DNA from: Seonamhaeicola aphaedonensis
GTDB taxonomy: Bacteria > Bacteroidota > Bacteroidia > Flavobacteriales > Flavobacteriaceae
Direction of reading: 5' to 3'
Length of the DNA stretch: 64,000 bases
Assembly (NCBI RefSeq): GCF_003386195.1
Contig: NZ_QRDX01000001.1
Span: 124,001 to 188,000 of the forward strand
Shown here in pieces: positions 12,199 through 64,000 of the stretch. The translations under genes were made by a program, and so were the position numbers. Each line of letters opens with the position of its first letter. Positions within the stretch are counted from its first letter, which is position 1. The notes under the pieces were generated by a model. It was not told where the DNA came from, did not search any database, and saw nothing but the letters and a program-made list of their open reading frames with translations.

Positions 12199-13242
12199 AT
12201 GGATATGGCATTTTTAGTAGGTGTATTACTCGTAGCATTGGGAGGAATTTTAGAAGGTCTTTTTTCAATACCAGTTACTAAAGTAAAGACATGGGAGTTT
12301 GAGAATATATGGGGGGTTGGGTCGCTTATTGCACTTTTGTTATTACCCTGGCCTTTATCTTATTTTTTCGTAGAAGACTTGTCTCAATTATACGCATCCA
12401 TACCTAATTCAATTTTAATAAGCATTGTGTTATGCGGTTTTGCTTGGGGAATAGGAGGTATTTATTGGGGGCGTGCAATTGCAACATTAGGGATGGCTCT
12501 GGGTGTTTCTATACTTATGGGACTCATTAATGTTTTCGGTTCAATTGTACCTCTGTCTGTTTTTGAGCCTAACAAAATATTTACTCTAGGTGGTGGTATT
12601 TTAATTTTAGCTGTTCTTATAATGATTGTAGGGATAATTATAATATCAATTGCTGGTAAAAAGAAAGAGCAGGCTTTAGTAATACGAGAGAGTAAAGTAG
12701 TTGAAAATAAAAAAACAGGAATATTTCGTTTGGGTTTGATCTTTTGCTTAATTTCTGGCATTCTTTCTTCTGCAGTTAATTTTGCATTTATTATTGGTGC
12801 TCCAATAACTGAGGAAGCTTCAAAAATGCGGGTACATGATTATGCTACTAGTTTTGCTATTTGGAGCCTCGTTTTTACAGCTAATTTTTCAATCAATGTT
12901 ATTTATGGTTTTTATACGATGCTAAAAAAAGGCACATTAAAAAACTTATCTAAAGGCAGTTTTTCTAGAGAGTGGATAGGTGCAGTTTTTATGGGTTTAG
13001 CATGGCCTGGAGGTATTATTATTTATGGTATTGGCGCAAATGCCATGGGACCTTATGGCGCTTATGCAGGCTTTCCAATGATGATATTGGCATCTATTCT
13101 AGCAGGGAATTTAGCAGGTGCTTTAGGTGGCGAATGGAAAAACACTGGAGTAGCACCTCGCCGAATTATGATAACAGGAATTTTGGTATTGTGTTTAGCC
13201 TTTTCCCTACTGGGATATTCAACTTATGTGATGAATGGATAA
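12199..13242 (+). CDS. rhaT: L-rhamnose/proton symporter
   Basis: A 347-residue membrane protein with about ten hydrophobic helices. It fits RhaT from end to end: the opening GGILEGLFSIPVTKVKTWEFENIWGVGSL, and later GISILMGLINVFGS-like and GGEWKNTG segments. It should carry free L-rhamnose across the inner membrane with protons. A second in-frame ATG lies two codons downstream. It sits 64 bases after the dehydrogenase gene and 17 bases before the lactonase gene. This is the strongest evidence that rhamnose, rather than fucose, is the sugar handled here. Confidence 0.9.
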   Translation: MDMAFLVGVLLVALGGILEGLFSIPVTKVKTWEFENIWGVGSLIALLLLPWPLSYFFVEDLSQLYASIPNSILISIVLCGFAWGIGGIYWGRAIATLGMALGVSILMGLINVFGSIVPLSVFEPNKIFTLGGGILILAVLIMIVGIIIISIAGKKKEQALVIRESKVVENKKTGIFRLGLIFCLISGILSSAVNFAFIIGAPITEEASKMRVHDYATSFAIWSLVFTANFSINVIYGFYTMLKKGTLKNLSKGSFSREWIGAVFMGLAWPGGIIIYGIGANAMGPYGAYAGFPMMILASILAGNLAGALGGEWKNTGVAPRRIMITGILVLCLAFSLLGYSTYVMNG

Positions 13243-13259
13243 CAGTTTAATATGAAAAT

Positions 13260-14117
13260 ATGACTATGAAAAATTCATCAATAATTGATGCACATATTCA
13301 TCTATGGGATGTAAAGCATTTAGACTATCCTTGGTTAAATCAATTTCCTAAAATCAATAGAACTTTTTCCTTATCAGATTATAATAAGGCTACAGCAGAA
13401 CAATCTATTGAAAAAATGATTTTTGTTCAAGCTGAATGCAAACCTTCTCAATTTTTAAAAGAAGTGGAATGGGTTCAAGCACTTTCAGAAAAGGACGAGA
13501 GACTGTCTGCAATAATACCTTGGGCACCTTTACATATAGGAAACGCAGTAGCGGAAGTATTAGAAAAATTTGCAGAAAACCCAAAAATAAAAGGAGTTAG
13601 ACAGTTAATACAACCAGAAGAAGATTTAAATTTTTGTATAAGTCCCGATTTTATTGAAGCCGTTAAACTCTTAGGAAAAAACAATCTACACTTTGAATTA
13701 ACTACAGATCCAAAACACTTTCCTGCTGTTTTAAAACTTGTAGAAAAGTGTCATGACACAATATTTATATTAAACCACATAGGTAATCCAAGTATAGTTA
13801 ACAAGCAATTATATCCTTGGAGACAACACCTAAAAGCCTTTGCTAATTCTGGACCACACTACTGTAAATTTTCAAACCTAGTCTGTAATGCCAATTTAGA
13901 TCTCTGGGATATTGATGATTTGAGACCGTATTCAGATATAGTGATTGATGTTTTTGGTCCGGAAAAATTAATATGGGGTAGCGATTGGCCTCACGTACTT
14001 CGTGCCTCTTCTTGGTCCAAATGGTTTAAAACAGCAGTTTCGTTAACAGAAAGTTTAAGTGAAGAAGAGCGTGATAAAGTTTTTAAAACAAATGCAATTC
14101 GTTTTTATAACCTATAA
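13260..14117 (+). CDS. Amidohydrolase, probable L-rhamnono-lactonase
   Basis: A 285-residue metal-dependent hydrolase of the amidohydrolase-2 family. The first metal site is DAHIHLWD (near residues 10-17), and the last is WGSDWPH near the C-terminus. An NHIG motif lies mid-protein. Enzymes with this layout open sugar-acid lactones (L-fuconolactone, L-rhamnonolactone). The neighbouring RhaT and SDR genes point to rhamnono-lactone (inference). It is 12 bases from the SDR gene, within the same operon. Confidence 0.85.
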   Translation: MTMKNSSIIDAHIHLWDVKHLDYPWLNQFPKINRTFSLSDYNKATAEQSIEKMIFVQAECKPSQFLKEVEWVQALSEKDERLSAIIPWAPLHIGNAVAEVLEKFAENPKIKGVRQLIQPEEDLNFCISPDFIEAVKLLGKNNLHFELTTDPKHFPAVLKLVEKCHDTIFILNHIGNPSIVNKQLYPWRQHLKAFANSGPHYCKFSNLVCNANLDLWDIDDLRPYSDIVIDVFGPEKLIWGSDWPHVLRASSWSKWFKTAVSLTESLSEEERDKVFKTNAIRFYNL

Positions 14118-14129
14118 AATAATACTGGT

Positions 14130-14975
14130 ATGAGCAATAGATTATATAAAAGCAACCATGAATTTGTTCCACAAAGGTTTGAAGGTAAAGTTGCTATTGT
14201 TACTGGTGGCGCTTCTGGTTTAGGAAGAGCTATTACAGAAGAATTATGTAAAGAAGGTGGTAAAGTTTTATTTACTGACATAAACGATTTAGGTAAAATA
14301 AAACAAGAGAATGACATTGAAAACAACTACGACACCACATTTTTAATGGGAGATATGGGAGATGAAGATTTTTGCAAATCCACTATAGATGAAACCATAA
14401 AAAAATATGGAAGAATTGACTATTTAATAAATAATGCTTTCTCTTTTACTGCAGCAGGCATCAATGCCGAAACTAAAGATTGGATGCGAAGTTTTAAAGT
14501 AGGCCCTTTAGCCTATGCAAAAATGGCACAAGAGGTTTACCCCTATATGAAAAAATCTGGTGGAGGTGCTATTGTAAATATTTCAAGCATTTCTGCTCAT
14601 ATTGCTCAAAAAGATAGGTGGACTTATAATGCATCAAAAGGAGCTGTAAACCAATTAACTAAATGCCAAGCTCTAGATTTTGCTCCTCATAACATACGAG
14701 TAAACAGTATAGATCCTGGTTGGATATGGACTCATGAAACAGATAAAGCTGCTAATCTAGATGGAGGCGGTCGAGAAAAATGGGATCCTATCTGGGGACG
14801 TTTTCATATGTTAAGACGTATGGGTAAAGCTGTAGAAGTGGCAAGACCCGTACTCTTTTTACTAAGCAATGACGCCTCTTTTATTACGGGCACTAATCTA
14901 GCAGTTGATGGAGGCTACCTCTCAATAGGTCCCGAAGGCTTAGGAGAAAACACTATTAATGCAGGATCTCAATAA
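14130..14975 (+). CDS. SDR oxidoreductase, probable rhamnose 1-dehydrogenase
   Basis: A 281-residue classical short-chain dehydrogenase. The nucleotide-binding motif is TGGASGLG, followed by a diagnostic NNA (LINNAFS). The catalytic Ser lies in NISSIS, and the Tyr/Lys pair in YNASK. The end LAVDGGY is typical. Directly downstream of the lactonase, it is the best candidate for the NAD(P)-linked first step, L-rhamnose to its lactone. The other SDR at 34.5 kb fits the later 4-dehydrogenase step better. The assignment of the two is inference from position. Confidence 0.8.
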   Translation: MSNRLYKSNHEFVPQRFEGKVAIVTGGASGLGRAITEELCKEGGKVLFTDINDLGKIKQENDIENNYDTTFLMGDMGDEDFCKSTIDETIKKYGRIDYLINNAFSFTAAGINAETKDWMRSFKVGPLAYAKMAQEVYPYMKKSGGGAIVNISSISAHIAQKDRWTYNASKGAVNQLTKCQALDFAPHNIRVNSIDPGWIWTHETDKAANLDGGGREKWDPIWGRFHMLRRMGKAVEVARPVLFLLSNDASFITGTNLAVDGGYLSIGPEGLGENTINAGSQ

Positions 14976-14996: not shown

Positions 14997-16394
14997 ATGA
15001 TTGAAGAACATATTAAACAAATTGAACAAAAACTTGGAGTTAACAAAGTTCTTATAGGAGAAAAAGTTAAAGAGAGATATGAGCATATATGGGAAATGGA
15101 CAAGCCTTTGTGTGCCAAAGCTGTAGTATTTCCGTCAACAACTCAGGATGTCTCAGATATCCTAACTATTTGTCATAAATACCACCAGCCCATTGTAGTA
15201 CATGGAGGATTAACAAATCTTACTGGGAGTACAGAAACCAATGCTGATGAATTAGTCATTTGTATGGAAAAAATGAATGTCATTGAAGAATTGGATGTTT
15301 CCAGCCGAACAATAACCGTACAATCTGGAGTAATCCTAGAATCCATACATCAAGAGGTAGAAAAAGAAGACTTACTCTTCCCTATTAACTTTGGTGCTGA
15401 AGGGTCTGCTCAAATAGGAGGTGTAATTGCTACAAATGCTGGTGGACTTCGTGTTCTTCGCTATGGAATGACCAGAAATTTGGTTTTGGGGCTAGAAGTG
15501 GTTATGGCTGATGGAACCATTATCTCCTCTATGAAAAAAATTATAAAAGATAATTCAGGTTATGATTTAAAACAATTTTTTATTGGCTCTGAAGGCACTT
15601 TAGGAGTAATCACTAAAGCCGTATTAAGGCTACAACAAAAACCCAAAAGTAGAAATAGTGCATTTGTAGCTATAAACGATTTTAATAAGGTAATAGCATT
15701 CTTAAAATTTATAGACTCAGGCTTGGCAGGTACCCTAAGTGGTTATGAGTTATTATGGGAACGTAATTTTAAAGCTATGACCAATCCTTCTACAAATATT
15801 TCAAAGCCTTTACCTTATGGATATAAATACTACGTCCTAATAGAAAGTTTGGGTAGTGATTATTTACAAGACCAGCAAAGATTAGAATCATTACTAGAAG
15901 AAGCTTTAATGGACGAGCTTATTTTGGATGCTGCTTTGCCGCAATCAGTGCAACATACAGAGTTGTTTTGGAGAATTAGAGAAGATGTAGATATTCTTGT
16001 TTCCCAATGCAATAATGTACAGAATTTTGATGTAAGTCTTCCTGTTTCAGAAATAGGCACCTACGTTGACGCTATTTTTAATATTTTAAATAAAATACCA
16101 GAAATAGACAACTTTTTTGCTCATGGCCATGTAGCCGATGGAAATATTCACTTTTTAATAAGTAAAAGCAATAATTCGACTGAACTCATAGATAAAATTA
16201 ATAATATTATATATACTCCCTTAACTGGTCTTGGAGGATCGGTCTCTGCAGAGCATGGTATAGGGATTCATAAAAAACCTTACCTAAAATTTTGTCGTTC
16301 AATTGCAGAAATACAATTGATGCAATTGCTTAAAACCACAATGGATTCAAGAGGCATTCTAAATCGAAATAAAATACTTGACCATTTCAAGTAA
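14997..16394 (+). CDS. FAD-linked oxidase of the D-lactate/glycolate type
   Basis: A 465-residue flavoprotein with a PCMH-type FAD-binding half (VVHGGLTNLTGSTETNADELVICM, then QIGGVIATNAGGLRVLRYG and IGSEGTLGVITKAVLRL). The FAD-oxidase C-terminal half has HGHVADGNIHF and SAEHGIG. It belongs with GlcD, D-lactate and 2-hydroxyglutarate dehydrogenases. If the pathway ends in pyruvate plus lactate, this enzyme may oxidise the lactate, but stereochemistry and substrate are not shown by the sequence. It closes the rhamnose operon, 21 bases after the SDR. Confidence 0.82.
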   Translation: MIEEHIKQIEQKLGVNKVLIGEKVKERYEHIWEMDKPLCAKAVVFPSTTQDVSDILTICHKYHQPIVVHGGLTNLTGSTETNADELVICMEKMNVIEELDVSSRTITVQSGVILESIHQEVEKEDLLFPINFGAEGSAQIGGVIATNAGGLRVLRYGMTRNLVLGLEVVMADGTIISSMKKIIKDNSGYDLKQFFIGSEGTLGVITKAVLRLQQKPKSRNSAFVAINDFNKVIAFLKFIDSGLAGTLSGYELLWERNFKAMTNPSTNISKPLPYGYKYYVLIESLGSDYLQDQQRLESLLEEALMDELILDAALPQSVQHTELFWRIREDVDILVSQCNNVQNFDVSLPVSEIGTYVDAIFNILNKIPEIDNFFAHGHVADGNIHFLISKSNNSTELIDKINNIIYTPLTGLGGSVSAEHGIGIHKKPYLKFCRSIAEIQLMQLLKTTMDSRGILNRNKILDHFK

Positions 16395-56181: not shown

Positions 56182-57159
56182 TCATATTTGCGATTTTTCA
56201 GGTCTAAAAAACAAAAATACCTCAAAAAAAAGATAGAATATTATAATAACTACTAACCAATTAGGATGGATATCTAAAATCACTGCGATTTGCCATAATA
56301 TAAAGCTCCTAACTGTCATTTCAACTGGAATTGAGGCATATGATTCTTCCTTGACCTTTGCTAAATGTGCATATATCTGACCATAAATAGTTAATATTGT
56401 AGCTATTGATGCTATGCCTATTCCAATCCCTGTTTCTACTGTTAACAAAACTAGAACTGTACTTAATAAAACAATAATATCTCCAATCCACACCGTTCTG
56501 TTCCAACCAAAAACAACCGGAAAAGTTTTATATCCAGTTTCTCTATCTGCCGATATATCTTTTAAATATCCCATTAACACGAAATTGGTATAAGACATGA
56601 AACTTAATAAAACCAGCATCAATAATTTACTAGAAAATGACTTAGAATCTACAATAGAAATGTATCCCATTAACGGTAATAGAGCCACAATCCAAGCATT
56701 ATAAAATGGTCCAACAAACCAAAAATTCTTTTTAAAATATGAATATGTTATTAATCCAAAAACACTTAAAGCCCCTAAGATAATATTCCAAAAATTCAAG
56801 TAAACTAAAATGATCACACTTAAAACAAGACCGAGTATACTAACTATTCTAACTGATTTGATTGAAATTACACCTTTTGATAATGGTCGATAAGGAGCCG
56901 ATATAGAATCAGTATCAATCTGCCATGTATCTGTAAGTGCTTGCCCAAAACCATAACCTAAAAACAGCGGAACAAAAGCCAAATATATTGACCATAAGTT
57001 TGTACTGATATTTTCTGTTACAGCAATAGCTATTCCACTCAATCCTACAATTCCTGATAGAAACAATAAATATGGCCGACACTGAATTAAATAAGCTTTG
57101 AAGAATTTAAAATTAAAAATGGGATAGGTATTTTTCATTTTAGAGTTTTTTCTGTTCAT
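56182..57159 (-). CDS. UbiA-family prenyltransferase
   Basis: A 325-residue protein with about nine hydrophobic helices. The first Asp-rich loop is GQALTDTWQIDTDSISAPYRPLSKG, and the second is GYLKDISADRETGYKTFPVVFG. Both are typical of UbiA-type intramembrane prenyltransferases. A start at the inner Met (MKNTYPIF, residue 8) is possible. It is the last gene of the seven-gene minus-strand operon, 10 bases after the lipid kinase gene. It should attach a polyprenyl group to an acceptor. The acceptor is unknown. Confidence 0.85.
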   Translation of the reverse strand: MNRKNSKMKNTYPIFNFKFFKAYLIQCRPYLLFLSGIVGLSGIAIAVTENISTNLWSIYLAFVPLFLGYGFGQALTDTWQIDTDSISAPYRPLSKGVISIKSVRIVSILGLVLSVIILVYLNFWNIILGALSVFGLITYSYFKKNFWFVGPFYNAWIVALLPLMGYISIVDSKSFSSKLLMLVLLSFMSYTNFVLMGYLKDISADRETGYKTFPVVFGWNRTVWIGDIIVLLSTVLVLLTVETGIGIGIASIATILTIYGQIYAHLAKVKEESYASIPVEMTVRSFILWQIAVILDIHPNWLVVIIIFYLFFEVFLFFRPEKSQI

Positions 57160-57169
57160 TTTTAATACA

Positions 57170-58114
57170 TTAATTCATTATATATATTGCATTAGGAACA
57201 ACTGAAAACCTACAATTTTTTCCTATAAAAACCTCTCCATCTGCCTCAATAGGCATAGGCTTACCGATGAATACATTTAAACTCTTTAGTTTATATGTTT
57301 TTCTTTTAGAATTAGTACTAAATTTACCCTTAATAAGAGCAATTAAAGTTCTCAAAAGCTCAACCTTATTCATTCTATCACAGTAGTTCAACCCTAAAAC
57401 ATTATCATTAAAAGATATATTTTGTTCATACCTAAAACTACCTGAAATATTTGGGTTTTTAATTACTGATAAATTAGACAAAGTAATAGTTTCGTTAATC
57501 TTATCATCTATTAATAGTTCTGCGTTATAATTCCTATATAAAAAAATAGTTTTTACAGCAGTAAAAAAAATAGCAGCATCCACCCAATATCTTTTAAGAA
57601 ATTTAAGAAAAAACTTTGGATGATTGAACCTATAATTAGCTTCAGCAGTAATACCCATGCTTGCATTTATTATGAAATATCTTGTATGGAATTGCTCATT
57701 AATATCTTCGTATGTAATTTTCCCTACATCATATAATTGACAAATCTTCCAATTAATTTTCACAGGCACATTCTTCACATATTTATTAAAAGGTTTATGA
57801 AAGTCGTTGCTGGAACCCAAACCTATACCTCCAATATATACTTGCCTAGAATCACTTTTTTCGATATTTAATAGAACATTAAGCATATAATTCAGGCTTC
57901 CATCACCACCTGCACTAACAAACCCATCAATTTTTTTTTCATGATACAAACTCTTTATCATCCCATTAAAATCACACGGAGGCATATATGTAACGATTTC
58001 TGTTTCCTCAGGAAAAATATCAAGTATACTTGAACATATTTCTTTCCACTTGTTAGCAGACTTTCCTTGTCTTGCATTTAGATTGACTAATATTACTAGT
58101 TTTTTAGGTTTCAT
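57170..58114 (-). CDS. Diacylglycerol-kinase-family lipid kinase
   Basis: A 314-residue protein with the DAGK catalytic pattern: VNLNARQGKSANKW at the start, the glycine loop VSAGGDGSLNYMLNVLL and the substrate-side motif GIGLGSSNDFHKPF. The C-terminal sandwich closes with GKPMPIEADGEVF. It should phosphorylate a lipid hydroxyl with ATP. Its ATG overlaps the stop of the RND gene by one base (TAATG), so the two are translationally coupled. Confidence 0.87.
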   Translation of the reverse strand: MKPKKLVILVNLNARQGKSANKWKEICSSILDIFPEETEIVTYMPPCDFNGMIKSLYHEKKIDGFVSAGGDGSLNYMLNVLLNIEKSDSRQVYIGGIGLGSSNDFHKPFNKYVKNVPVKINWKICQLYDVGKITYEDINEQFHTRYFIINASMGITAEANYRFNHPKFFLKFLKRYWVDAAIFFTAVKTIFLYRNYNAELLIDDKINETITLSNLSVIKNPNISGSFRYEQNISFNDNVLGLNYCDRMNKVELLRTLIALIKGKFSTNSKRKTYKLKSLNVFIGKPMPIEADGEVFIGKNCRFSVVPNAIYIMN

Positions 58115-60366
58115 TAAATATATTTTTTAAACCAGGTTAACATTAGTACGGGAGCCAAAATTAAATCCACTGTTAGTGTTATGAATACCGTTATTCCTAT
58201 GAGAATTCCAAGAGTAAATACTTCCATAAATCCAGAACAAATTAATACGCTAAATCCACCTAATAAAATAAAACTAGTACCTAGTATTGCTTTGCCGCAT
58301 TCTTCCAAAGCTTTTAAAATTGAATGTTTCAAACTACTACCTTTTTTTCTTTCTAATTGAAAACTACTCAGGAAATGTATGGTATCATCAATAGCTATTA
58401 CAAATCCTATAGTGAAAATAATAGAGGTTGCTCCTCTTAACTCTATACCTGTAAGCCCCATTATACCTGCAACAATTAAAATTGGCACAAGGTTTAAAAT
58501 TAGGGTCAAAAAAACTAATGCTACTTTTTTATATATACAACCTAAGGTTATTGCTACAGAAATAATTGCTATTATTAACCCATAAATCATATTGTCTATA
58601 CGTACTTTATGTGCTCTATCAACCAAATAATCTTTTCCAGTTATTCTTGCTTGAACTTTTGTGGTATCAATTAATGTGTTTATATAACCTAATATTTCAT
58701 TATTTTTTTCATTAATATTCAACCTTCCTATGTCCTTCATTCTTCCCGAAAATTTATAAATACTATGTTCCTTATTAAATAAATAGTTTCCATTGTTAAA
58801 TACACCTATATGCTTATCATATTTTGAAATACTTTTTTCATCACTTGGAATAGGGTTCGCTTTGAACGAAAAGGGCTTGTAGGCTCTATGAAATAATTTA
58901 TAAAACAAAATTGGTGACTTAATTGAATTTACGTAATCTAAACTATCGAGGAAATTTTGAATATTCAAACCCATTTCTAATATATCGGGTTCATTTAATT
59001 TAACACCTTTTTTTGCTATTAAAAGCAATTCAAAATCTCTTGCGCCACCAAAGTTTTTTTCAAAAAAAGAGTAATTATTAGAAAGTTCACTATTACTTGG
59101 CACATTAGACAATTTATAGTTATTCACATTAATAAAAAAAATCGAAATAACAGAAAAAATTGATATGCTTATATATGTCACCAAAACACTTTTAGGTTGA
59201 CCATTAAACCACTGAGCTTTCTTAATAATCACTTTTGACAAGTTTTCAAAAAAATTACTTGATGAAAAAGTGATTTTATTTTTAGTCATTAAGAAAAATA
59301 CAGGAGTAAGAGAAACGGTTATTAAATAAACTAAAAGTATTGACAATCCAGCCTCCAAACCAAACTCTCTAATTGCTGGCATTGGAGAAATATACATAAC
59401 AAAAAAACCAATAGCTGTTGTAAAAGAGGTTACAAATGTTGTTTTACCAACTTCTTTTAACGTAACATAAAGTGCTTTTTTTTTGCAAACCTCATTTACT
59501 CTCAACGAATTGTATTTGTATGACAAATGGATGACATCTGAAATTCCAATTATTAATATTATTACTGGAAATAAATTAGCCATAATACCCAATGGCTTAT
59601 TAAAGTAAGCCATACCTCCTAAAAAAATAACAAGTGAAACAAAAACGACAATCAATGGAAATATAATTGCAATAAATTTTCTAAATATTAAGACAAGTGT
59701 GACTATTAAAAAAACAAAAAACCAAAGTGTAAAATCTTTTATTTCAAGAGAGAGCAAATCCTTGAAGGAAGTTTCAAGGTACTTATCACCAATTATATAA
59801 GAGTTTATTGTTAAACTATTTCTTAATTTTTCTAGTTTATTTAATAATAATACTGTATCGCTATTATCTAAATTATCTTCAATCTCAATCCAAACAAATA
59901 AAGCATTACTTTCTTTATTAATGAAGTATTGTGTCCATTCATAATCTTTAAAAACTTTTTTAAGATCTATGGCTATGTTGGAACTATCATCTTTATTCAA
60001 ATAATGTAATTGCGTTAAACCAAGAAACGTATTATACGGGTAGGATAGATCAATTAATGAACTAACTCTTCTTATTTCAGCAAACCTCTTTAGACTATCT
60101 ATGAAAATTTTAGAGGTATCTAAAAAGCTTTGGTCAAAAGAATACTTCGGATTCTCTAAAGCTATTACAAGAATATTACTATAATCTTTAAATTGAGAAT
60201 TCACTTGTTTATAAAAGGTATACTCTGGGTCGTTTTCAGGGAAAAACTGATAAAAATCTGTGTTATACTTTATTCGATTCAATATTGATATAGAATAAAC
60301 AGTAAACACAATTACAATTACTAGTAAAACATAACGATATTTAATCCATTGCTTTATCATAAACAC
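58114..60366 (-). CDS. RND/MMPL-family lipid exporter
   Basis: A 750-residue inner-membrane protein with the MMPL plan: one N-terminal helix, a periplasmic domain, a five-helix bundle (GIMANLFPVIILIIGISDVIHLSYKY), a second periplasmic domain, and a second bundle (GATSIIFTIGFVIAIDDTIHFLSSF). The conserved charged residues of both bundles are visible. MMPL proteins export lipids or lipid-linked products. In this operon it likely moves the product of the neighbouring enzymes out of the cytoplasm (inference). It overlaps the GNAT gene by 10 bases. Confidence 0.85.
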   Translation of the reverse strand: MFMIKQWIKYRYVLLVIVIVFTVYSISILNRIKYNTDFYQFFPENDPEYTFYKQVNSQFKDYSNILVIALENPKYSFDQSFLDTSKIFIDSLKRFAEIRRVSSLIDLSYPYNTFLGLTQLHYLNKDDSSNIAIDLKKVFKDYEWTQYFINKESNALFVWIEIEDNLDNSDTVLLLNKLEKLRNSLTINSYIIGDKYLETSFKDLLSLEIKDFTLWFFVFLIVTLVLIFRKFIAIIFPLIVVFVSLVIFLGGMAYFNKPLGIMANLFPVIILIIGISDVIHLSYKYNSLRVNEVCKKKALYVTLKEVGKTTFVTSFTTAIGFFVMYISPMPAIREFGLEAGLSILLVYLITVSLTPVFFLMTKNKITFSSSNFFENLSKVIIKKAQWFNGQPKSVLVTYISISIFSVISIFFINVNNYKLSNVPSNSELSNNYSFFEKNFGGARDFELLLIAKKGVKLNEPDILEMGLNIQNFLDSLDYVNSIKSPILFYKLFHRAYKPFSFKANPIPSDEKSISKYDKHIGVFNNGNYLFNKEHSIYKFSGRMKDIGRLNINEKNNEILGYINTLIDTTKVQARITGKDYLVDRAHKVRIDNMIYGLIIAIISVAITLGCIYKKVALVFLTLILNLVPILIVAGIMGLTGIELRGATSIIFTIGFVIAIDDTIHFLSSFQLERKKGSSLKHSILKALEECGKAILGTSFILLGGFSVLICSGFMEVFTLGILIGITVFITLTVDLILAPVLMLTWFKKYI

Positions 60367-61298
60367 CTAACATCTAAACTTATAAAATCATTTTGATCTA
60401 CAGGGAAAGTGCTACATATCTGATAAGCATAAGAATTAATTGAAATAGGTTTTAAAACCGAATATAAGCCTGAGCTTTTAGTACAAGCTACTAAAAGGTA
60501 TTTAATATTTTGCTTTTCGAGAAAATCTAAAATGGAGTTTACTTCGTCTTTTGAAGGTATATTATCATAAACTAAGATACCAAAGTTTAGTTCATCTCCT
60601 TCTTTAGGGAGTTGTTTACTATATGCTTGAAAGAAGGTTAAAATATAATTGATTAACTTAATTAAAAAGTGAAGTTTTCTAATTTTTAAATGATATATAA
60701 GGTTTGTTTTCCAAACTTTTGGTTTTCCGTTGATAAAGTAAAAAAAAGACTTTACTTTTTGTTTATTTATTGGAGCATATACAGTTAATTTTTCAGAAAT
60801 AGATTGGTTGTAGCTTCTTTTCAATCTTCTGTTGGTTGGAATTGTGAGATACGAAAAAGGGTATTTATAGAGTTTTAGACCTAGAATTCCGGCAGATTTA
60901 CGTACTGCTTTGTTACCTTTTTTCATTGTTAGAAAGACATTTGAGACGTTGTTAGGTAAATAAAAATTCTTATAAGCATACATCCCCATTTTCTTTGTTA
61001 AACCTTCTCCCCTTGCATGCTTTGCTACCCTTACATCATAACAATAACCAAGATTCCTTTTTGTATTATTAATGACAATTGACACAATTGAGGCAGCCAA
61101 AACACCTAATAATTCACCATTAAAATCAACTGCAAGATATATTTGATACTTTTCAAAATTCTCCGAGCGCCTAACAAAAGATGTTTTAACCATTTCAAGT
61201 TGAATCCATTTTCCTTGAAGTGCATTCTTTTCCAAAGCAAGTAAAGCAGCTTCATACTTTTCTGAGTATGGAATTATTTCATATTGAAAACTGTTCAT
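60357..61298 (-). CDS. GNAT-like acyltransferase
   Basis: A 313-residue protein. The N-terminal half looks like a GNAT fold: FNGELLGVLAASIVSI and the acyl-CoA loop VAKHARGEGLTKKMGMYAYKNF, which is a degenerate R/QxxGxG. The C-terminal half (about 180-313) has no motif I know. It overlaps the BtaA-like gene by four bases (ATGA) and the RND gene by 10. It may acylate an amine made by its neighbours. Acceptor and acyl donor are not readable. Confidence 0.6.
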   Translation of the reverse strand: MNSFQYEIIPYSEKYEAALLALEKNALQGKWIQLEMVKTSFVRRSENFEKYQIYLAVDFNGELLGVLAASIVSIVINNTKRNLGYCYDVRVAKHARGEGLTKKMGMYAYKNFYLPNNVSNVFLTMKKGNKAVRKSAGILGLKLYKYPFSYLTIPTNRRLKRSYNQSISEKLTVYAPINKQKVKSFFYFINGKPKVWKTNLIYHLKIRKLHFLIKLINYILTFFQAYSKQLPKEGDELNFGILVYDNIPSKDEVNSILDFLEKQNIKYLLVACTKSSGLYSVLKPISINSYAYQICSTFPVDQNDFISLDVRCL

Positions 61299-62368
61299 AA
61301 CTTTTCTACTAAATGAACTTTGTACATTTTAGTGCTCTCCATATTTGAAACATCTTTAACCTTATATCCCAATGCTTTAATTTTTTTGATAATATTAGTA
61401 TCAATATGATTTCTTAAGTAAGATCTAAACACAAAGGCACATTTGTCAGATACTTTCAAAGCTTTTATGCATTTTATAACATAGTCTGTTTTATGAAAAC
61501 TTAAAATATCAGACATCGATAAAAAAACATTAGAATTATATGATTTAAAAGCATTACTTTCTAGAAAGTTTAACACGTCATTATTTATAAATTGTATTTC
61601 AATTTTTTTTTTCCTTAACCTATCTTGAATTTTTTTTAAAGTTTCAGGATTTTGGGATGTTGGTAAAAACTCTACATCCATTTTTTTTAAAGACCCAAAG
61701 AAAACTAAATAGGCCATAAAAGATTTGTGAATTTCTTTTTTATCTATCAATTCTTGAAAGCCTTTAGTAATTATTGAAGCATCCACACCTTTGCCAATAA
61801 ATGCAGGATCCTTATTCCCCAGTAGCAAATAACTTGTTTTTTTTGAGAATATATTTTTTACAATTTTCCATCTAAATTTTGAATAACTATTATAATCTTG
61901 ATTAAACATTTTTAAAAATGAAACTCCTAAAAATACATTTAATAATGGTCTAGCCTTAGATAAAAATTTTTCATATTGACCAATATTTAGTATTCCTTTT
62001 TTTATAATACGATGATTTTTGTTCCAATAATTCCTTGTAGAGGCTTCTAATTTATTTTGGAGTTTCATAAAATACATCATCCTTTCATTCGCAGACATTT
62101 CAGAAGCACCCGTAAACCTCAAATAGCCCTCAACATCAAGTTCAGTTAATGCTAATAATTTTAATTTCAATAATTCAATAGCATCAGAATTTGTATCTAC
62201 CGCAAAGACTTGTTTTAGATGAGTATTACTTAGTAAGGCTATAAGGCGTTCACCACTACCAATAACAGAAATCACTGAATAGTATCCTTTGCTGAAAGCT
62301 ATTTCGGGAGAGGAATCTTCATTAACATGAGAATACCATATCATATTAAGAATTTTTAGCTGAATCAT
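61295..62368 (-). CDS. DUF3419/BtaA-like aminocarboxypropyl transferase
   Basis: A 357-residue protein of the DUF3419 family: the opening MIWYSHVNEDSSPEIAFSKG and SAM-binding-like VISVIGSGERLIALLS with AVDTNSDAIELLKLKLLAL. A C-terminal Rossmann-like part has FLSMSDILSFHKTDYVIKCI. BtaA enzymes move the 3-amino-3-carboxypropyl group of SAM onto diacylglycerol in betaine-lipid synthesis. Here the acceptor may differ, as there is no BtaB methyltransferase next to it. It overlaps the oxoamine synthase gene by 23 bases. Confidence 0.72.
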   Translation of the reverse strand: MIQLKILNMIWYSHVNEDSSPEIAFSKGYYSVISVIGSGERLIALLSNTHLKQVFAVDTNSDAIELLKLKLLALTELDVEGYLRFTGASEMSANERMMYFMKLQNKLEASTRNYWNKNHRIIKKGILNIGQYEKFLSKARPLLNVFLGVSFLKMFNQDYNSYSKFRWKIVKNIFSKKTSYLLLGNKDPAFIGKGVDASIITKGFQELIDKKEIHKSFMAYLVFFGSLKKMDVEFLPTSQNPETLKKIQDRLRKKKIEIQFINNDVLNFLESNAFKSYNSNVFLSMSDILSFHKTDYVIKCIKALKVSDKCAFVFRSYLRNHIDTNIIKKIKALGYKVKDVSNMESTKMYKVHLVEKL

Positions 62369-63626
62369 GCCAAACTTCTTCTAAACAATCAACCAATTTA
62401 TCAATATCTTGTTGATTATGTTCTGCGGAAATACTTATCCTAAATCGTTGATCGTTTTGAGACACCGCCGGAAACTCGATAGAATTGATAAATATTCCCA
62501 TCTTATCTAGTTGCATGTTTGCATTACGAATATTTATCCATGTTGGTACTTTAACCGAAATAATCGCAGCCTCTGGCTCAGCTGTTAACTCAAAACCTCT
62601 TAGCTTACTAACTGCATATTTTGTGTTTTCCAGAACCTTTTTACGCCTCCACGGCTCATGCTCTAAAAGGTCTAGTCCTGCTAATACAGAAACTATTGTA
62701 ACTGGCGGAAGTGCTGCCGAAAAAACGTAAGGCCTCGAATAATATCTAAAATACTCTATTATATCTTTATCAGCCGATAAAAAACCTCCTGTAAGTGCAA
62801 ATGCTTTACTAAATGTACCCATGGAAATATCTACGTCTTTCTCTAATTGAAAATGTTCAGCAGTTCCACCTCCTTTATCTCCTAAAACACCTGTACCATG
62901 TGCATCATCCAGAATAAGTAGAACACCAAGTTTTTTACATACTTCAGCTATTTTAGGCAATTTTGCTAAATCACCATCCATTGAATAAACCCCTTCAACA
63001 CAAACAAATGTTTCTTTATATTTTTTTTGGTCTAATTCAACCAAAACTTTCTCTAAGGAACCTATATCATTGTGTCTAAAAGTCTTGAAATTAGCATTAT
63101 TTAATTTTATGCCATCGTATAAAGATGCATGACTGTATTTATCTAAGACAAAATTATTTTGGGTATTAGATATGGCTGAAGCCAATCCTAAATTAGCCAT
63201 ATATCCTGATGGAAAAATGAGAGTATCTTCTTTCTTTTTCAAACTTGACAGTCTATCTTCTAGTTCATTCATTAGTAAGGTATATCCATTCAATAATGGT
63301 GGTCCTCCTATACCAATCCCAAATTTTTGTATTACAGCGTCTATTTTTTCTTTTATGTAAGGGTGATTGGCAAAACCGAGATAATTATTAGAAGCAAACA
63401 TTAACATTTCGCGTTCTTTTTTAAGTGCATTATCAAATACAGATACCGTTCTTCCTGTTGCAGAAACAATCATTCTTCTATACGTAAACTCCCTATTTAC
63501 CTCTAATCTATTAAGCATAGCATTGAAACAAGAACTTTTATCCTTCAATGATTTATTCCTATTTGCTTTTTCAAAATGATATAGATCATTTTTTTCTGCA
63601 GTTAATTCATTCAACAAATTTCTCAT
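62346..63626 (-). CDS. Alpha-oxoamine synthase (SPT/KBL/BioF-like)
   Basis: A 426-residue PLP enzyme of the alpha-oxoamine synthase family: FASNNYLGFANHP, GGPPLLNGYTLLMNELEDRL, FPSGYMANLGL, DDAHGTGVLGDKG and the PLP lysine in GTFSKAFALTGGF. It condenses an amino acid with an acyl thioester and loses CO2. Serine palmitoyltransferase, capnine-type and BioF/KBL enzymes cannot be told apart by motif alone, but the lipid kinase and exporter next to it favour a long-chain lipid base (inference). It is coupled to the upstream ThiL-like gene by a four-base overlap. Confidence 0.85.
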   Translation of the reverse strand: MRNLLNELTAEKNDLYHFEKANRNKSLKDKSSCFNAMLNRLEVNREFTYRRMIVSATGRTVSVFDNALKKEREMLMFASNNYLGFANHPYIKEKIDAVIQKFGIGIGGPPLLNGYTLLMNELEDRLSSLKKKEDTLIFPSGYMANLGLASAISNTQNNFVLDKYSHASLYDGIKLNNANFKTFRHNDIGSLEKVLVELDQKKYKETFVCVEGVYSMDGDLAKLPKIAEVCKKLGVLLILDDAHGTGVLGDKGGGTAEHFQLEKDVDISMGTFSKAFALTGGFLSADKDIIEYFRYYSRPYVFSAALPPVTIVSVLAGLDLLEHEPWRRKKVLENTKYAVSKLRGFELTAEPEAAIISVKVPTWINIRNANMQLDKMGIFINSIEFPAVSQNDQRFRISISAEHNQQDIDKLVDCLEEVWHDSAKNS

Positions 63627-64000
63627 AATCTCAAGTCTTTATCTAATTTCAATAACTCCACCATATATTGTTGCGGACTTTTAATATTATTCTTATTGTA
63701 AAGATTAGTTGTATCAAAAATATTTATTGAAAAACCGTCAACATTGGTAAACAGTTTTGATTTATTATCTACATCTCCTATCTTAGTTGGATTCCAATTT
63801 ATTCGTTTAGCCTCGGTTTCAAACTTTTTAATCTTGTCTGAGGGAATAGTGAATAATAATTCATATTCACCATGTGGACCACACATAAAAATCCAATTTG
63901 GAAGTTGTTTCTCTTCAGAAATTTTCAAACATGTTTTATGAAGAATGTCATTTAAAGGAGTTGTAAGATTAATCCCTAGGTTATTTAATTCCATAAGTTG
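63623..64000 (-). CDS. AIR-synthase/ThiL-like protein, N-terminus beyond window
   Basis: Only the C-terminal 125 codons are visible, and the frame stays open to the window edge, so an ATG at 63994 is probably internal. The segment GPHGEYELLFTIPSDKI followed by WNPTKIGDV matches the C-terminal domain of ThiL and AIR-synthase-like proteins, where GGEDYELLFT is the usual wording. The GG-ED reading is altered here to PHGEY. It probably acts on ATP and an unknown substrate. It opens the visible part of the lipid operon. Confidence 0.6.
   Translation of the reverse strand, partial: QLMELNNLGINLTTPLNDILHKTCLKISEEKQLPNWIFMCGPHGEYELLFTIPSDKIKKFETEAKRINWNPTKIGDVDNKSKLFTNVDGFSINIFDTTNLYNKNNIKSPQQYMVELLKLDKDLRL

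Follow-up and report, generated by a model that had tools for sequence, protein, structure and literature searches.

The 64,000-nucleotide stretch of the Seonamhaeicola aphaedonensis genome analyzed here (contig NZ_QRDX01000001.1, positions 124,001 to 188,000; hereafter, the window) ends within a seven-gene operon on the minus strand, which is a real, conserved and, as far as we searched, undescribed operon of known enzyme families with altered substrate sites. It likely makes an aminolipid, and we consider it reasonably probable that the operon encodes a pathway dedicated to a long-chain aminolipid that is as yet undescribed and that it was probably acquired horizontally. In the order of transcription, the genes encode a ThiL-like kinase, an alpha-oxoamine synthase (AOS), a DUF3419 protein (BtaA-like), a GNAT-like protein, an MMPL-type exporter, a lipid kinase and a UbiA-fold membrane transferase. 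An initial annotation of this DNA had described seven head-to-tail genes of these families, with overlaps of 4, 23, 4, 10 and 1 bases and one 10-base gap; the open reading frame (ORF) map and Pfam bear out the former, and the junctions along transcription (−4, −23, −4, −10, −1 and +10 bases) agree with the latter. Judging from the overlaps, the translation of the seven genes may be coupled.

The evidence that carries this reading is the conservation of a four-gene core across Bacteroidota. The AOS was a better probe than the DUF3419 and GNAT proteins, which reached few relatives in whole genomes. When 395 genomes of the phylum were searched, nine genomes in addition to that of the window gave AOS matches at E ≤ 1.6e-102, and the next best match was at 7e-83. 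With samples of 245 and 175 genomes drawn from the classes to which G734 and G791 belong (these samples overlap the 395-genome sample), the number of genomes outside the genus that hold this AOS clade rose to 26, where the counts rest on matches at E ≤ 1e-90. The stretches read around the AOS genes were up to 20 kb long, with short contigs of 4.2 to 7.3 kb for loci L101, L103, L104, L105 and L113. The genes for UbiA, the kinase, the ThiL-like protein and AOS are collinear on one strand in 11 of the 26 genomes; a radical S-adenosylmethionine (SAM) gene is inserted between the ThiL-like and AOS genes in L098, and UbiA is truncated by the contig end in L103. In a twelfth genome with the core (G1140), a contig break splits AOS: its start shares a contig with the UbiA, kinase and ThiL-like genes, and the remaining part lies on another. 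The GC contents of the core loci range from 32 to 71%, and these loci reach two other classes of the phylum. Around other AOS-family genes, UbiA, kinase and ThiL matches were found in none of five control stretches. Furthermore, a search at E ≤ 1e-5 gave no cluster-type UbiA in any of the 13 genomes having the AOS alone (four of them less than 90% complete), and it recovered this UbiA in all three positive controls.

The four-gene core is not a chance neighborhood. The notion that unrelated genes are merely cotranscribed here can draw on the upstream genes for short-chain dehydrogenases/reductases (SDRs), epimerases and a CAAX protease, which are not conserved beside the operon; however, the collinearity of the core over such a wide GC range in two other classes and the lack of UbiA in the AOS-only genomes make it highly improbable, and the MMPL protein alone could be a passenger. 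The initial annotation had proposed an aminolipid operon in which the oxoamine synthase makes an aminoketone, and had taken free variation of the neighbors among relatives as a sign against it. A pathway that is dedicated, conserved and built around such an enzyme is supported. Such variation was not found for the four-gene core, nor for the BtaA-like and GNAT genes, which accompany the core in two further genomes, but it was found for the exporter, and half of the 26 genomes with the AOS lack the core. The conserved core includes the ThiL-like protein, which had been given no role.

The AOS (62,346–63,626, minus strand; 426 aa; Aminotran_1_2, 2.1e-49) is a pyridoxal 5′-phosphate (PLP)-dependent enzyme that constitutes a subfamily of its own. 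On the AOS alignment, Lys274 (the PLP lysine), His166 (the stacking His), Asp240, His243 (the second His) and Arg396 (the carboxylate Arg) are retained in all 28 sequences. The protein scores below the cut-off of every NCBIfam model that it matches: 324 bits for serine palmitoyltransferase (SPT; cut-off, 640), 341 for BioF (426) and 210 for the CqsA-like model (428). For comparison, the AOS-family proteins of L048 and L053 pass the Bacteroidota SPT model with 738 and 665 bits. The nearest solved relatives are SPTs (234 bits), versus 166 bits for cysteate acyltransferase (28eh), and CAI-1 synthase is also among them. Pro109 aligns with Ser81 of SmSPT, and of the 27 clade members, 24 have Pro and three have Ser at this position; the next position is Pro in all 27, whereas 17 of 19 other AOS-family proteins have Arg there. 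In SmSPT, Ser81 touches the substrate carboxylate via water (PMC10196870), and in ThAOS, the Val79 site helps determine the amino-acid selectivity (PMC11906848). Position 109 also aligns with Val of KBL-type enzymes, and its equivalence to Val79 of ThAOS was drawn through L059. Given the Pro-Pro pair (Pro109-Pro110) at the substrate site, a different amino-acid substrate is predicted, which is probably not the L-serine used by SPT.

These data also bear on the strongest known-pathway rival for the early steps, a divergent sphingolipid pathway. In that pathway, the AOS would be an SPT making 3-ketosphinganine, the GNAT protein a ceramide synthase and the YegS-type protein a ceramide kinase, and the rest would decorate the ceramide phosphate. 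The rank of SPTs as the closest solved relatives points to it, as does the use of an N-acyltransferase and a ceramide kinase in the Caulobacter phosphosphingolipid pathway (PMC11324152). The SDR and epimerase genes upstream in the window's genome also fit, though they lie outside the conserved unit. Nevertheless, the SPT score of the AOS is only about half of the cut-off, Pro replaces both Ser81 (in most of the clade) and the following Arg (in all of it), the conserved set contains no reductase, and the UbiA and ThiL-like proteins are left without a place. We thus regard the sphingolipid pathway as unlikely.

The other three core proteins also combine conserved and altered features. The UbiA-fold protein (56,182–57,159, minus strand; 325 aa; UbiA, 8.8e-28) matches its family with 97.7 bits (cut-off, 34.2), and among solved structures, digeranylgeranylglyceryl phosphate synthase and chlorophyll synthase are the closest to it. 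In all 12 sequences that cover it, the first motif is TDxxQxDTD, versus NDxxDxxxD in the solved relative. N is changed to T and D to Q, and thus the usual metal ligands are changed, while the second Asp motif (DxxxD) is intact. These two changes make the isoprenoid transfer that the initial annotation ascribed to this protein doubtful. A variant of the aminolipid reading retains such a transfer: the product would be an isoprenoid-tailored lipid, with UbiA moving a prenyl group from an ordinary prenyl diphosphate. It is consistent with the family membership, the solved relatives and the intact second motif. On the other hand, the first motif is replaced throughout, and no prenyl-synthase gene was found among the seven genes by Pfam. 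This variant is possible, but we think it doubtful.

The lipid kinase of the YegS/DgkB type (57,170–58,114, minus strand; 314 aa; DAGK_cat, 1.3e-8) consists of DAGK_cat and YegS_C domains and retains the GGDG and DGE motifs. The ThiL-like kinase of the AIR-synthase superfamily (63,623–64,000 and on to position 64,642, minus strand; 339 aa with a TTG start; AIRS, 1.2e-21) is encoded by the first gene of the operon. It keeps six Asp residues shared with canonical ThiL, whose reaction converts a monophosphate to a diphosphate. An identity as canonical ThiL is contradicted by its score on the thiL model (155 bits; cut-off, 184), by the altered VEGVHF motif and by a separate canonical ThiL in the genome, which scores 317 bits.

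The BtaA-like protein (61,295–62,368, minus strand; 357 aa; DUF3419, 5.7e-21) is a putative 3-amino-3-carboxypropyl transferase, and it matches DUF3419 with 75.6 bits (cut-off, 28.2). BtaA is described in an excerpt of PMC10491745 as a SAM-dependent aminocarboxypropyl transferase. The four BtaA proteins of the clusters form one group (support 96/96) apart from nine other DUF3419 proteins, and they carry VNED, versus WED in eight of those nine; the ninth, in L038, has neither. No methyltransferase family (BtaB-like) was found among the seven genes by Pfam. With the motif changed and no such methyltransferase, a betaine-lipid-type headgroup (homoserine-type in the initial annotation) is questionable. 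The GNAT-like protein (60,357–61,298, minus strand; 313 aa; Acetyltransf_9, 8e-6), a putative N-acyltransferase, only just passes its Pfam cut-off (26.3 bits; cut-off, 25), and at E ≤ 0.01 it has matches to PF13527 and PF00583 but none to PF13444. Sequence searches of the solved structures gave no homologue of the DUF3419 protein (best E, 0.062) or of the GNAT protein (best E, 0.85). The predicted structure of the latter has a mean pLDDT of 31, from an alignment of two sequences only.

DUF3419 genes also occur in other settings. Another type of locus is seen in Flavobacteriaceae (L036, L037 and L038). In L036:7720-13983, the gene lies with those for a Shikimate_DH-like protein (perhaps an acyl-ACP reductase), an aldehyde-decarbonylase-like protein, GNAT and MMPL. 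At L037:9448-13612, the gene lengths point to a similar order, and the DUF3419 and GNAT genes there were confirmed by similarity. In L038:433-7858, a fused AMP-binding/aminotransferase/Shikimate_DH protein adjoins DUF3419 and MMPL. In L020:4398-14014, from another family of the order, DUF3419 is accompanied by HMG-CoA reductase, an AMP-binding enzyme, a PEP-synthase-like protein and a UbiA protein of a second kind; L015-L018 resemble L020 in gene sizes, which is a likeness of size only. These loci share with the operon a DUF3419 gene near GNAT and MMPL (L036) or adjoining a UbiA protein (L020), but aldehyde-type enzymes, or HMG-CoA reductase and the PEP-synthase-like protein, replace the AOS core.

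As in the window, where they come after AOS, the BtaA-like and GNAT genes come after the core in L100 (G1046) and L071 (G791). The cooccurrence of the AOS and DUF3419 genes, which the initial annotation had proposed as a check, was found at these loci and in Seonamhaeicola sediminis. The predicted exporter of the window (58,114–60,366, minus strand; 750 aa; MMPL, 1.7e-25) is of the MMPL/HAE3-type RND family and is 42% identical to the MMPL protein beside the DUF3419 gene of L036. In L071, genes for a MacB-like permease and an ATP-binding cassette (ABC) ATPase lie between AOS and BtaA, where an exporter is expected; the ABC ATPase is established for G791 only, the cross-locus probe having been out of frame and unable to detect relatives. 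In L100, no exporter was recognized in the stretch read. The exporter is interchangeable (MMPL or MacB-type ABC). Its presence in two forms would also suit a product other than a membrane lipid, namely a small metabolite or signal that is secreted, where a short aminoketone (of the CAI-1 type or pyrroles) would be modified and exported by MMPL or ABC, and the AOS family includes such enzymes, with CAI-1 synthase among the solved relatives. However, a core with UbiA and a lipid kinase points to an intermediate bound to the membrane, no part of the set is less conserved than the exporter, and the AOS falls far below the CqsA-like cut-off, so that we consider this explanation rather improbable.

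A radical-SAM gene is present in seven loci (L066, L067, L068, L098, L099, L101 and L102), on the other strand in L102, and radical SAM and BtaA occur together in no stretch read. The radical-SAM protein at L066:7933-9363 has 476 aa, and its homologues are found in the other six loci. A 5′-nucleotidase with a Por secretion tail was also found adjoining the core at L067:13861-15729 and L100:1472-3331 (by Pfam) and at L068:9117-11057 (by similarity).

Returning to the aminolipid reading, the substrates, the order of steps, the product and its export are predicted as follows. The AOS would join an amino acid (probably not L-serine) and a fatty acyl thioester to give an alpha-aminoketone. The YegS-type kinase would phosphorylate a lipid alcohol, and the ThiL-like kinase may add a second phosphate or phosphorylate a small partner. 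The UbiA-fold enzyme would then couple the activated piece to a partner in the membrane. The BtaA-like enzyme could add a SAM-derived 3-amino-3-carboxypropyl group, the GNAT protein could N-acylate an amine, and the MMPL protein would export the product. A more specific version can be put forward only tentatively, and as a whole it is unlikely: the two kinases would act in series to convert an AOS-derived, non-isoprenoid lipid alcohol to its diphosphate, and UbiA with its rebuilt metal site (TDxxQxDTD) would transfer it. Here, an N-acylated aminocarboxypropyl arm would be provided by the BtaA-like and GNAT proteins, and the products would represent a new lipid class scattered over Bacteroidota. 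This version is suggested because of the known reaction of ThiL and because the order of UbiA, kinase and ThiL-like genes is kept in the core loci.

Several points weigh against the proposed pathway. The 13 genomes that have the clade AOS without the core imply that this AOS has another role too. In addition, G1093 has AOS and radical SAM, but a search of the genome at E ≤ 1e-5 gave no UbiA; the contig starts within AOS, and this genome was counted as undecided among the 26. The BtaA, GNAT and exporter genes are variable, and the radical-SAM gene appears in seven loci, so the final product must differ among lineages. The cluster-bearing rows of the AOS tree are not one clade, four changes being needed, and the core was thus lost or moved more than once. 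No conserved ketone reductase was found, with only L068 having a weak SDR match beside the core (2e-5). The hydrophobic nature of the product is deduced from the UbiA, MMPL and lipid-kinase families only. Finally, both the product and the enzyme activities are predictions.

The extent of the operon was examined at its upstream end. The window end falls inside the operon, and the ThiL-like gene is completed by the adjoining sequence. A gap of 240 bases lies upstream of it, followed by a gene for a small Ig-like protein of 145 aa and, beyond that, by SDR, epimerase and CAAX-protease genes, which form a tight run of their own. S. sediminis has no counterpart of the 145-aa gene at that place, and the SDR, epimerase and CAAX-protease genes are not conserved beside its operon, which indicates that the conserved unit ends at the ThiL-like gene. 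Thus, the earlier statement that the operon runs past the window is right for the ThiL-like gene, but further upstream genes are not conserved in S. sediminis. A promoter scan gave the chance level (51 found versus 57 expected). The region L002:14833-18784, which lies upstream of the operon, contains two DUF6134 genes and an ORF of 75 codons (16067-16294); the latter looks by eye like the start of the epimerase gene at 13198-14184, suggesting duplication with decay.

Within the genus, all seven genes in unchanged order were found in S. sediminis (L014), which was the sole locus returned by the scan of genome contigs with the DUF3419 protein. The downstream neighbors are the same, and the immediate upstream genes differ. 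The DUF3419 gene is present in two of the seven sampled genus genomes, and none of the other five gave a match to the cluster-type UbiA at E ≤ 1e-5. G299 and G300 have the LysR and SbtA genes that flank the operon but lack the operon itself. In a set of 397 genomes of the family, close DUF3419 relatives are confined to the genome of the window and that of S. sediminis (G297), and three further genomes have remote ones. This patchy presence suggests that the operon was probably gained horizontally. The nucleotide identity to S. sediminis, taken in 150-base steps, is 70–84% from the ThiL start to about 61,550 and 92–99% from there down to about 56,200; for the flanking core genes, it is mostly 82–96%, with a low of 72–82% near the PNPase end. 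Given this jump near 61,550, the operon is a recombination mosaic whose break lies within the BtaA-like gene. The AOS of the window is joined in the AOS tree to L065 and L067 of another class, with support (80/89) that is not strong. L071, L012 and L013 are long branches in this tree, and its label "SPT-like" is loose, for only L048, L053 and L059 of the 17 rows so labeled were scored against NCBIfam and L059 is of the KBL type.

If the proposed reading is true, a conserved four-enzyme core with a swappable tailoring set can be named for a lipid that nobody has sought. Lipids made by AOS enzymes (sphingolipids and sulfonolipids) matter for the membranes of Bacteroidota and for host interaction, and a biochemical question is raised about the role of a ThiL-like kinase between a lipid kinase and a UbiA enzyme. 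No description of the gene set was found among the matches listed in the open-access full text of PubMed Central, which covers few subscription journals, so that absence from it is weak evidence. Within this open-access literature, the initial statement that no pathway with such a set has been described still stands, and the pathway, probably for an unusual lipid, has apparently never been examined chemically, as far as the literature was searched.

The initial annotation had named sulfonolipid, flexirubin and betaine-lipid pathways as possible matches, and our comparisons argue against all three. The Caulobacter ceramide-phosphate pathway (spt, cerS, cerR and the ceramide kinase CC_1160) resembles the operon in starting with an AOS-family enzyme and in having both a lipid kinase and an N-acyltransferase. 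However, the AOS here is not an SPT by score or site residues, the conserved unit lacks acyl-carrier and cerR-like genes, and the operon adds the UbiA, ThiL-like and BtaA-like proteins. A serine sphingolipid was rejected as the product, since the AOS fails the SPT cut-off and has Pro109 for Ser81, and no 3-ketosphinganine reductase is shared by the core loci. The capnine/sulfonolipid pathway has an AOS-family enzyme in the same phylum; it was rejected because the AOS is less like cysteate acyltransferase than SPT and the operon, to which this search was confined, has no cysteate-synthase-type domain. The BtaA/BtaB betaine lipid (DGTS) shares the DUF3419 family and a possible 3-amino-3-carboxypropyl transfer, but the operon has no methyltransferase, VNED stands for WED, and the gene sits within an AOS/kinase/UbiA operon. 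With the ornithine and glycine aminolipids (OlsB/OlsF and GlsB), the possible N-acylation of an amino-acid-like headgroup is shared; the OlsB/OlsF and GlsB N-acyltransferases have PF13444 in common, according to an excerpt of PMC11631085. This candidate was also rejected, as the GNAT protein has PF13527 and PF00583 and no PF13444 at E ≤ 0.01. The hallmarks of the flexirubin/aryl polyene pathways are ketosynthases and ammonia-lyase-type genes, and Pfam showed neither in the operon's seven genes nor in the ten genes upstream that were searched. Phytol salvage consists of a phytol kinase, a phytyl-phosphate kinase and a UbiA-type transferase, its kinases belonging to other families than those here. 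It nevertheless shares the logic proposed for this operon, in which two kinases in series are followed by a UbiA enzyme.

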